A stretch of 64,000 bases of DNA, from contig JAQUQE010000001.1 in NCBI GenBank assembly GCA_028716225.1, forward strand, positions 157,407-221,406, given 5' to 3'. The stretch comes from Dehalococcoidales bacterium. Its GTDB lineage: Bacteria > Chloroflexota > Dehalococcoidia > Dehalococcoidales > UBA5760. The position numbers were made by a program, and so were the translations under genes. Of the stretch, positions 41,388 through 44,360 are shown piece after piece; positions within the stretch are counted from its first letter, which is position 1; each line of letters opens with the position of its first letter. The notes beneath the pieces were generated by a model, which did not search any database, had not been told where the DNA came from, and was given only the letters and a program-made list of their open reading frames with translations.

Positions 41388-43151
41388 ATGGCTCATAGTA
41401 AAGACCAGCAAACGGAAGTTGAGGATAAGAGACTGGAGATTATGCGGCATTCCGCTTCCCATATTATGGCGGAAGCTGTCCAGGCCATCTTTCCCGATGC
41501 CAAATTTGGCATCGGGCCGTCAATCAAAGACGGCTTTTACTATGATTTCGACCTAACCCGTTCACTCACCCCTGATGACCTGCCTCTAATTGAGGCTAAA
41601 ATGGCGGAAATAATTGCTTCCGATAAGCCATTCATCTTAGAGGATTCCCCCAAGGAAGAAGCACGACGGATACTGGCCGGCCAGCCCTATAAGCTAGAGT
41701 TGATCGATGAAATTCCGGATGAGAATGTCCGCCTCTATCGACAGGGCACCTTTGTTGACCTGTGCCGCGGGCCGCACCTGAGTTCCACCGGAGAAATAAA
41801 GGCCTTCAAGCTCCTCAGTATTGCCGGTGCCTACTGGCGCGGTGATGAGCGCCAACCTATGCTGCAGCGAATATACGGGGTAGCCTTTAACAGTAAAGAA
41901 GACCTGGACGGTCACCTGACCAAAATCGAGGAAGCCGACAAGCGCAACCACAGAAAACTGGGTAAAGAGCTTGACCTGTTCAGTATTAACGATGAGGCTG
42001 GCCCGGGTTTGGTTCTCTGGCACCCCAAGGGAGCCATAATACGCCGGACCATTGAAGACTTCTGGAAGGATGAACACATCAAACGCGGTTACGATATCGT
42101 ATACACCCCGCACATTGCTAAAGCAGACCTATGGAAAACCAGCGGACACTGGGAATTTTACCGCGACTACCTGTACAGCCCGATGGAGGTAGAAGGGCAG
42201 GAATATATCCTTAAACCGATGAACTGCCTGGGACACATCCTGATCTACAAAACAAAACGGCGCAGCTATCAGGAACTGCCAATTCGTTATGCAGAGCTGG
42301 GCACTGTTTACCGCTACGAACGCTCCGGGGTACTGCTCGGGCTGTCACGGGTAAGAGGCTTCACCCAGGACGATGCCCACATTTTTTGCTCTTTCGACCA
42401 GCTGCAGGATGAGGTAGCCGGGGTGCTGGATCTGGCCCGCTTTATGATGGAAAACTTTGGCTTCAGCAACTACAAGGTATACCTGTCCACCCGTCCCGAG
42501 AAATATGCCGGCGACCTGAAAGTGTGGGAGGAGTCGACTAAGATTTTGGGTCAGGCGCTGGACCAGCTCGGAATTGACTACAGCATCGACCCGGGAGAGG
42601 GTGTCTTTTACGGTCCTAAGATAGACATCAAGTTTGAAGACGCCCTGGGTAGGGGATGGCAGGGTCCCACGATACAGGTAGATTTTAATCTACCCCAGCG
42701 CTTCGATGTCACTTACATCGGCCAGGACGGCAATGAGCATATGGCGGCTATGGTACATCGTACAGTACTGGGCAGCATGGAGCGCTTTCTGGCTTCACTT
42801 ATTGAACACTATGAGGGAGCCTTCCCGGTATGGCTATCGCCGGTCCAGGTAGTAATACTACCGGTAGCCGACCGCCACCTGGACTATGCCCGTGAAATTG
42901 AGAATAAGCTTAGCAATGAAGGAATACGAGTAAAGGTTGACGGGCGTTCGGAGCGGGTAAATCGCAAGATCCGACAGGCACAACTGGATAAAATACCTTA
43001 TATGCTGATAATAGGCGATAAAGAGGTGACTGCCGCCAGTGTTTCATTACGCCTGCGTAGCGGCGAACAAATAGACTCGCAAACCCCGGAAAGCTTCATA
43101 AAGCGGGTAAAGCAAGCTATCATCAGCCGGGCTAAGGATTTGAATCCGTAA
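41388..43151 (+). CDS. thrS: threonyl-tRNA synthetase without TGS domain
   Basis: Class II synthetase charging tRNA-Thr. The protein begins directly with the editing domain: MRHSASHIMAEAVQAIFPDAKFGIGP and TFVDLCRGPHL hold its HxxxH and C/H residues. The catalytic core has ILKPMNCLGHILIYK, RYERSGVLLGLSRVRGFTQDDAHIF and GPKIDIKFEDALGRGWQGPTIQVDF, and the anticodon domain ends it. At 587 residues it is about 55 shorter than E. coli ThrRS because the N-terminal TGS domain is absent. The upstream 140 bases contain an imperfect CCTC/GAGG hairpin but no clear T-box. First gene of the thrS-infC-rpmI-rplT-pheST block. Confidence 0.94.
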   Translation: MAHSKDQQTEVEDKRLEIMRHSASHIMAEAVQAIFPDAKFGIGPSIKDGFYYDFDLTRSLTPDDLPLIEAKMAEIIASDKPFILEDSPKEEARRILAGQPYKLELIDEIPDENVRLYRQGTFVDLCRGPHLSSTGEIKAFKLLSIAGAYWRGDERQPMLQRIYGVAFNSKEDLDGHLTKIEEADKRNHRKLGKELDLFSINDEAGPGLVLWHPKGAIIRRTIEDFWKDEHIKRGYDIVYTPHIAKADLWKTSGHWEFYRDYLYSPMEVEGQEYILKPMNCLGHILIYKTKRRSYQELPIRYAELGTVYRYERSGVLLGLSRVRGFTQDDAHIFCSFDQLQDEVAGVLDLARFMMENFGFSNYKVYLSTRPEKYAGDLKVWEESTKILGQALDQLGIDYSIDPGEGVFYGPKIDIKFEDALGRGWQGPTIQVDFNLPQRFDVTYIGQDGNEHMAAMVHRTVLGSMERFLASLIEHYEGAFPVWLSPVQVVILPVADRHLDYAREIENKLSNEGIRVKVDGRSERVNRKIRQAQLDKIPYMLIIGDKEVTAASVSLRLRSGEQIDSQTPESFIKRVKQAIISRAKDLNP

Positions 43152-43158
43152 GAAATAT

Positions 43159-43187
43159 TTGCTTCCCGAGCGCTAATGTGCTATATT
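43159..43187 (+). promoter_or_regulatory. promoter of the infC-rpmI-rplT operon
   Basis: TTGCTT at 43159-43164, 17 bases, TATATT at 43182-43187; start near 43194, giving a leader of about 40 bases. Confidence 0.6.
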
Positions 43188-43234
43188 CCTGTCTGTAGTA
43201 AGCTGTTCTTGAAAGAAGGGGAATTAGAGAAATA

Positions 43235-43780
43235 ATTAAAAAACTTCGTATCAATGAGAGAATCATAGCCAGAGAAGTTCGTCTTGTGGGGGAGAAGGGG
43301 GAGCAGCTAGGCATAATGACCTTGCAGCAGGCACGAGAGGTAGCAGAACGGCAGAACCTCGACCTGGTAGAGGTAGCACCTACCGCAGCACCTCCGGTAT
43401 GTCGCCTGCTTGACTACGGAAAATACAAGTACGAGCAAGCCAAAAAGGAGCGTGAGGCCAAAAAGAGCCAGCGGGTGTCACTCCTCAGAGAGATCCGTTT
43501 TCGGCCTAGAATCGATAACCATGATTTTGAGGCCAAGGCGAGGTCGGTAAAGAAACTCCTGGAAGAAGGCGACAAGGTAAAAATTACGGTTATGTTCAGG
43601 GGTCGTGAAATAGTACACCCTGAAACCGGCGTGAAGCTGCTACAGCGGATGGCAGAATTATTGAAAGAGACGGCTTCTATTGAAAAACAACCGCTACTAT
43701 ATGGCAAGCGACTGATTATGATATTAGCACCGCTAACGATGCCAAAAAGCAGAATAAAGGAAGGTGTGAAGCAAACGTAG
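43235..43780 (+). CDS. infC: translation initiation factor IF-3 (non-canonical start codon)
   Basis: IF-3 keeps ribosomal subunits apart and checks start-codon pairing. Conserved segments are LRINERIIAREVRLVGEKGEQLGI, LDLVEVAPTAAPPVCRLLDYGKYKYE and IRFRPRIDNHDFEAK. The conserved N terminus begins upstream of the first GTG (43286), yet between the in-frame stop at 43199 and that GTG there is no ATG, GTG, TTG or CTG. The likely start is ATT at 43235 (or ATA at 43232), after AAGGGGA at 43216-43222. In E. coli an AUU start lets IF-3 repress its own synthesis; the same logic probably applies here. The product would be 181 residues, a normal length. Confidence 0.88.
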   Translation: MKKLRINERIIAREVRLVGEKGEQLGIMTLQQAREVAERQNLDLVEVAPTAAPPVCRLLDYGKYKYEQAKKEREAKKSQRVSLLREIRFRPRIDNHDFEAKARSVKKLLEEGDKVKITVMFRGREIVHPETGVKLLQRMAELLKETASIEKQPLLYGKRLIMILAPLTMPKSRIKEGVKQT

Positions 43781-43781
43781 G

Positions 43782-43982
43782 ATGCCGAAGATTAAAACAC
43801 ATAAGGGAGCTCAGCGCCGCTTCCATATTACCGGCAGCGGCAAACTAATGCGGGTTAAGATCGGTAAGAGTCACTTCCGTCGTCGCAAGACAAGACAGGC
43901 GAAAGGACTTTACGATGAAACAATACCGGTAAACAAAAGCGACAGGACCCGCATCAAAAGACTCTTACCCTACGGGGTTTGA
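43782..43982 (+). CDS. rpmI: 50S ribosomal protein L35
   Basis: 66-residue basic large-subunit protein. MPKIKTHKGAQRRFHITGSGKLMR and KSHFRRRKTRQAKG are the L35 signature. It starts one base after the infC stop, so it is probably translated by coupling with infC, the usual arrangement of infC-rpmI-rplT. Confidence 0.96.
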   Translation: MPKIKTHKGAQRRFHITGSGKLMRVKIGKSHFRRRKTRQAKGLYDETIPVNKSDRTRIKRLLPYGV

Positions 43983-44000
43983 CTTAAACAGGAGGATATT

Positions 44001-44360
44001 TTGCCACGAGTCAAGCGAGGTGTGACCACCGGTCACCGACATAAGAAGGTATTAGCACTAACTAAAGGCCATAGGGCAACCAAGCACTCCCTTTACCGTC
44101 GTGCTCATGAGTCTATGCTTAAGTCCTTGAGCTATAGCTATATCCACCGCCGCGATCGCAAGGGCGATATGAGACGTTTGTGGATTTTAAGGGTTAACGC
44201 CGCCAGCAGAAATGAAGGTATTACCTACTCTCAGCTTATGAATGGCTTAAACAAGGCAGGAGTAGCTGTTAACCGCAAGATGTTAGCCGACATGGCAGTA
44301 AGAGATCCTGAAGCCTTTGGCAATTTAGTAACCATAGCCAAAGCACAGATCCAGCACTAA
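44001..44360 (+). CDS. rplT: 50S ribosomal protein L20
   Basis: Binds 23S rRNA early in assembly and often represses its own operon. PRVKRGVTTGHRHKKVLALTKGHRATKHSLYRRAHE and RRDRKGDMRRLWILRVNAA are the L20 signature. 119 residues. Starts at TTG 44001 after AGGAGGATATT. Confidence 0.96.
   Translation: MPRVKRGVTTGHRHKKVLALTKGHRATKHSLYRRAHESMLKSLSYSYIHRRDRKGDMRRLWILRVNAASRNEGITYSQLMNGLNKAGVAVNRKMLADMAVRDPEAFGNLVTIAKAQIQH

Follow-up and report, generated by a model that had tools for sequence, protein, structure and literature searches.

The infC reading frame in the window

Where does translation of infC begin when its reading frame offers no standard start codon ahead of the conserved N terminus of initiation factor IF-3 (IF3)? 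The question arises in the window analyzed here, a stretch of 64,000 nucleotides from a Dehalococcoidales bacterium (contig JAQUQE010000001.1, positions 157,407 to 221,406), in which infC is preceded by thrS (41388–43151, TIGR00418 match) and followed by rpmI (L35; 43782–43982, TIGR00001), rplT (L20; 44001–44360, TTG start, TIGR01032) and pheS- and pheT-like ORFs identified by eye and from the gene order. All features described below lie on the + strand. Direct reading bounds the infC frame upstream by an in-frame TAA at 43199–43201, from which it runs GCT GTT CTT GAA AGA AGG GGA ATT AGA GAA to ATA (43232) and ATT (43235), then AAA AAA CTT CGT ATC AAT GAG AGA ATC ATA GCC AGA GAA GTT CGT CTT to GTG (43286), and ends at the TAG of 43778–43780. 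No ATG, GTG or TTG stands in frame from the TAA up to GTG 43286.

The frame encodes a full-length IF3 orthologue, which scores 209 bits with TIGR00168 (cut-off 60), carries both Pfam domains, IF3_N and IF3_C, and shows 51% identity with E. coli IF3 across 163 columns; it is the one infC copy found in the genome, a search for a second having returned none. The TIGR00168 match begins at residue 13 of the stop-to-stop frame (43238) and the IF3_N match at residue 17 (43250), both upstream of the GTG at 43286–43288, which is the gene-finder choice but lies inside IF3_N and is rejected as the start. The claims of an earlier sequence-only reading, that infC must use a codon other than AUG, GUG or UUG and that the conserved IF3 N terminus is encoded upstream of the first GTG, are therefore borne out. 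The AAGGGGA motif which that reading noted ahead of the ATA and the ATT was confirmed at 43216–43222 as a Shine–Dalgarno (SD) sequence, conserved in position within the order, with an aligned spacing of 9 nt to ATA 43232 and 12 nt to ATT 43235. Taken together, sequence and conservation reveal a near-cognate codon of the AUU/AUC/AUA type where a canonical start is absent, with AAGGGG 9 nt upstream. Read from the AUA codon (43232–43234), infC spans 43232–43780 and encodes 182 amino acids.

Start codon across Dehalococcoidales

Of the 121 genomes of the order, 104 yielded an infC gene, that of the window included, and each of these loci was read; another order genome that carries infC (G475) lies outside this set. 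At the column that precedes the R of the R-x-N motif by five codons, ATA is present in 100 of the 104 loci and ATC in two, and the remaining two loci start one codon later, one with ATC and one with ATT. The start codons are thus ATA in 100 loci, ATC in three and ATT in one, with 31 of 35 families using ATA alone. AUH occupies offset -5 in 102/104 loci, against 18 of 480 positions at the control offsets -14 to -8. In the 30 codons leading up to the motif, 0/104 loci have a canonical start paired with a strong SD, and in 80 of them the frame is free of ATG, GTG and TTG all the way from the upstream stop to the motif, which makes chance or a local sequencing error, including the hidden ATG that the sequence-only reading had allowed for, an unlikely source of the missing canonical start.

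The codon after the start (43235 in the window) varies across the order, also in the amino acid encoded: it is ATT in 52 of the 104 loci, GTT in 32, TTT in six, GCT in four and ATC in three, with others in the rest. A near-fixed ATA column followed by a variable codon favors AUA 43232 over AUU 43235, and infC would almost certainly start at the former. The comparison of start regions in relatives, which the sequence-only reading had proposed as a check, thus yielded a near-fixed ATA and turned against its own leaning to AUU. Farther downstream, the column of GTG 43286 holds GTG in 42 loci, GTC in 27, GTA in 22, GTT in 12 and ATC in one.

An ordinary isoleucine codon would interchange among ATA, ATT and ATC, as it does inside infC itself. 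In the start column, the 102 order loci with an isoleucine codon show ATA/ATT/ATC counts of 100/0/2. The corresponding counts at two near-invariant internal isoleucine columns are 18/45/40 (ATA 18/103) and 15/60/27 (ATA 15/102), and three less conserved internal columns carry ATA in 14/63, 20/65 and 19/77 loci. Parsimony on a FastTree tree of IF3 proteins without their first columns, on which counts are rough owing to the short protein, gave 4 changes of the start codon in the order, compared with 24–30 in four internal isoleucine control columns. When the rest of the class was added, the start codon required 13 changes (181 AUH-start loci), or 17 with all start codons counted, and the control columns 41–63.

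Two further regularities were observed around the start. The third base of codon 2 is T in 95/104 order loci, T being found at 18% of third positions in codons 11–40; a constraint at the nucleotide level immediately downstream of the start may explain part of the conservation around the AUA. In addition, ATA followed by a purine creates a +1-frame stop overlapping the start in 94/104 loci.

Shine–Dalgarno spacing

A strong SD, defined by a score of at least 14, was detected in 102 of the 104 order loci. With spacing counted up to the ATA from the base that aligns with the final G of GGAGG, 70 of the 98 ATA loci with a strong SD have 11 nt, within a range of 8–12; the window, with its score of 14 against a median of 18, stands below most. 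As a control, rplT was located in 74 order loci and showed a spacing of 5–6 nt in 45 of 59 strong-SD cases, and among the 20 strong-SD ORFs of the window, eight have 5–6 nt and 13 have 7 nt or less. The rpmI gene is of no use as a spacing control: some SD is present in 95/98 loci, a strong one in 15/98, and the spacings are scattered from 2 to 16. Elsewhere in the class, the spacing of ATA loci ranges between 3 and 12; a long spacing therefore characterizes the order and does not go with AUA as such. A strong SD is absent in 19/77 class and 5/45 phylum loci.

We tentatively propose, with more doubt than confidence, that selection in the order holds infC at AUA specifically and not at any codon rejected by IF3, jointly with a strong SD at a fixed and unusually long distance. 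This pair may represent a distinct setting of an IF3 thermostat, one where AUA is not functionally equivalent to AUU or AUC.

A separate observation concerns rplT, which starts with TTG in the window (44001) and in 58 of 74 order loci, as located by motif search. Such a start is unusual for a ribosomal protein gene.

Probable promoter and leader

A probable infC promoter was identified at 43159–43187, consisting of TTGCTT (43159–43164), a 17-nt spacer and TATATT (43182–43187) preceded by TGC; the transcript would be expected to start near 43194–43197. The -10-like site recurs in the loci of the order. At about -50 to -45 from the ATA, a sigma-70-like -10 matching TATAAT in at least five of six positions was found in 63/104 loci (shuffled mean 5.6), and the pattern TGnTAnnnT in 55/104 loci against 1.35 in shuffles; the site is also plain in a 30-locus alignment. 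Among the 84 loci with a -10 of at least 4/6, 47 have a -35 of at least 4/6. The -35 of the window itself is poor, with 3/6 matches, and a consensus scan did not list the TATATT site; it listed a promoter-like TTGAAA-16-AATAAT that overlaps the infC start.

No conserved structure was detected in the leader: RNAalifold returned 0 pairs on 30 leaders, the fold of the window leader was no better than those of its shuffles (z 0.09), and Rfam gave no match in 43100–44100 at gathering score, nor even at E 10. An infC operon controlled through an L20 leader is known in B. subtilis, as described in the available text of PMC6097659. Control of this type was considered for the present operon and set aside, since Rfam and RNAalifold were both negative for the structured leader it involves.

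Translational coupling through the overlapping +1-frame stop was also rejected as a general device, as 55 of the 94 loci with such a stop have another stop within the five preceding codons. A +1-frame ATG, GTG or TTG within 38 nt upstream of the infC start occurs in only 17/104 order loci, that of the window included (TTG at -23). Coupling would be possible in these 17 loci and is not general.

infC starts in the wider class, the phylum and other phyla

In an earlier study, infC was reportedly described as a gene with a non-AUG preference across phyla. To extend the comparison beyond the order, we read 90 loci of other class members (drawn from 89 of the 130 such genomes with a match) and 50 from other classes of the phylum (50 of 212 genomes outside the class); these loci are best-scoring matches together with a choice of about one per family and do not form a random sample. 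Since the calling rule outside the order seeks AUH first, the following tallies lean to AUH: ATA 65, TTG 10, ATC 8, ATT 4, ACG 1, CTG 1 and one locus without a clear call in the class, and ATC 22, ATT 16, ATA 9, ACG 1 and two without a clear call in the other classes (the three unclear loci being L220, L229 and L244). Exactly at offset -5, AUH was present in 67/87 class loci (background 11/406 positions) and in 29/49 phylum loci (background 8/285). Two of 87 class loci, L109 (ATG) and L130 (TTG), combine a strong SD with a canonical start. As a yardstick, the same reading procedure recovers the annotated ATT start of E. coli infC.

A named set of 80 loci from several phyla, 13 of them from Chloroflexota, was read under the same AUH-first rule and gave ATC in 40, ATT in 18, ATA in 17, CTG in one, no start in one and no clear call in three. 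AUH was thus called in 75/80 loci, and in 63/67 without the Chloroflexota; the non-AUH calls are L273, L274, L284, L315 and L319, of which L319 reads ATT by eye. ATC was found in 30 of 36 Actinomycetota and ATT in 14 of 22 Bacillota, and ATA also appears in three loci of Eggerthellaceae type and in three of Rhodobacteraceae type. At least four of the named loci (L249, L250, L253 and L260) repeat loci of the other sets. Start calls were set by hand for 19 loci, and the nine loci of family f68 were set as a block to TTG; L127, L134, L162 and L186, whose anchor was missing or wrong, were read by eye, and manual calls were also made for the named loci L257, L284 and L295. The deep conservation expected by the sequence-only reading points in the right direction, although it is not new, such starts having been published for E. 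coli, Streptomyces and S. aureus.

Several departures were observed. In class family f68 (L113, L117, L119, L120, L122, L126, L131, L170 and L178), infC has a conserved TTG in 9/9 loci with no strong SD, and in place of the AUH start its N terminus bears a stretch rich in proline; the IF3-sensitive start was apparently lost there, and such starts can thus be lost. Two loci from distant lineages, L174 (offset -5) and L238 (offset -6), carry ACG where AUH stands elsewhere, with an SD upstream, and may use ACG starts. In L209, L220 (family f56) and L274, either CTG is the sole plausible infC start near an SD or there is no clear start. Genome G147 holds two infC genes (L106 and L175), of which the L106 copy is Rhodobacteraceae-like, with ATA at -15, and is perhaps contamination. 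IF3 matches in G179:C8 and G202:C1 (L178) lie in open frames of 769 and 556 codons, which may represent fusions or chance frames.

Possible mechanism and alternative explanations

We consider translation of infC from AUA 43232, with autoregulation by IF3, the best account of the locus, at a probability of roughly 0.8. The position of the start is drawn from sequence conservation, and the SD and promoter-like sites are likewise read from the sequence; from these we infer a likely transcription start, IF3-dependent repression and feedback. The initiator tRNA would read AUA with a third-position mismatch, and IF3 would consequently destabilize 30S complexes formed there. Scarce IF3 would then allow more infC translation and plentiful IF3 less, keeping IF3 in step with ribosomes. 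The SD, unusually far upstream (9 nt here, mostly 11 nt in relatives), would serve to recruit the 30S subunit to an otherwise very weak site. Transcription of infC probably begins from the nearby upstream promoter, giving a leader of some 35–40 nt; as this leader is short and lacks a conserved structure, control is likely to be exerted at the start codon. The sequence-only reading had linked the unusual codon to its rejection by IF3, a link that is likely to hold, although autoregulation itself goes beyond what sequence can establish.

The alternative that survives best, though we regard it as unlikely, is that the AUA sets a fixed low infC output free of IF3 feedback. Sequence cannot tell whether a start is simply weak or under regulation, and the non-canonical starts of three other S. 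aureus genes gave about 10% of an AUG reporter in one medium, with one of the three reaching as much as 30% in a second medium, according to the available text of PMC13009471. However, IF3 discriminates against non-canonical starts in E. coli and Streptomyces, as stated in the part of PMC5472188 available, and the gene for the discriminating factor itself retains such a start in several phyla.

Slightly less probable still is that the ATA is preserved by a demand at the nucleotide level and not for its strength as a start, whether an AU-rich element (ATARTTAAR), the promoter-like ATAATT, RNA accessibility or the overlapping +1-frame stop. The T at the third base of codon 2, the TTGAAA-16-AATAAT site over the window start and the +1-frame stop formed by ATA and a purine are all in keeping with such a constraint. 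Yet other classes of the phylum mostly have ATC or ATT followed by a different codon 2, which leaves AUH and not a wider element as the common property; moreover, no conserved fold was detected, and the upstream +1-frame start that coupling would use is confined to the 17 loci mentioned above.

Initiation at AUU 43235 is very unlikely. This codon is in frame and is the one used by E. coli infC, but the column is ATT in only half of the order loci and is preceded by the nearly fixed ATA, so an E. coli-like start with a conserved AUU column was rejected; the SD spacing would also rise to 12 nt here and typically to 14 nt in relatives. A start at GTG 43286, the first canonical codon in frame and the one given by a mechanical ORF list, can be practically dismissed, as it would strip IF3 of its first conserved residues and part of IF3_N, its column is non-canonical in 62/104 order loci, and coding conservation upstream of it starts at the ATA.

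Significance

Reading infC from AUA corrects the start of the gene, which a gene finder limited to ATG, GTG and TTG would place inside the IF3 N-terminal domain; a canonical codon ahead of the motif is absent from 80 of the 104 order loci. The comparison also extends probable IF3-sensitive infC starts to Chloroflexota at codon-level resolution. A near-fixed AUA in one order, beside the interchange of ATC and ATT elsewhere in the phylum, provides a natural comparison with which one could ask if IF3 treats AUA, AUU and AUC differently. A specialist might find the near-fixation of AUA and the fixed, long SD spacing unexpected.

Comparison with known systems

Among the matches listed by our literature search, no paper dealt with infC starts in Chloroflexota, and a Thermomicrobium roseum paper, in its available text, names infC as a tree marker alone. 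Accordingly, no earlier report of the codon, its near-fixation or the long fixed SD spacing in this order was found in that search.

The device as such is already known. The available text of PMC5472188 states that IF3 represses non-canonical starts and that the ATT start of E. coli infC makes IF3 self-regulating, citing Butler et al. 1986, 1987 and Sacerdot et al. 1996 for AUU and autoregulation, and gives ATC as the infC start in Streptomyces. In S. aureus, retapamulin profiling (Ribo-Ret) published in 2026 found the infC AUA occupied by ribosomes, and the authors suggest autoregulation (PMC13009471, in the text available). In vitro, IF3 favors strong pairing at the third codon position; with AUU decoded by CAU, full-length product dropped to a share of 31.1% once IF3 was increased to 1.5 uM, as given in the accessible portion of PMC10158994.

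The window shares with E. coli K-12 the orthologous gene, the gene order thrS-infC-rpmI-rplT-pheS-pheT and a near-cognate start with a third-position mismatch downstream of an SD. It differs in having AUA instead of AUU, in a protein that starts five codons before R-x-N instead of 13, and in a promoter-like site just upstream, and the feedback reported for E. coli is here inferred. Streptomyces infC also has an IF3-sensitive AUH start, but the codon is AUC and the SD spacing is 4 in the Streptomyces loci compared. The closest match in codon is S. aureus infC, where the same gene has an SD-directed AUA start; it belongs to another phylum, and its start is backed by Ribo-Ret data, that of the window by sequence. 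Considering these examples, AUU in E. coli, AUC in Streptomyces and AUA in S. aureus, we hypothesize that the mechanism acting on infC in Dehalococcoidales is likely the same.
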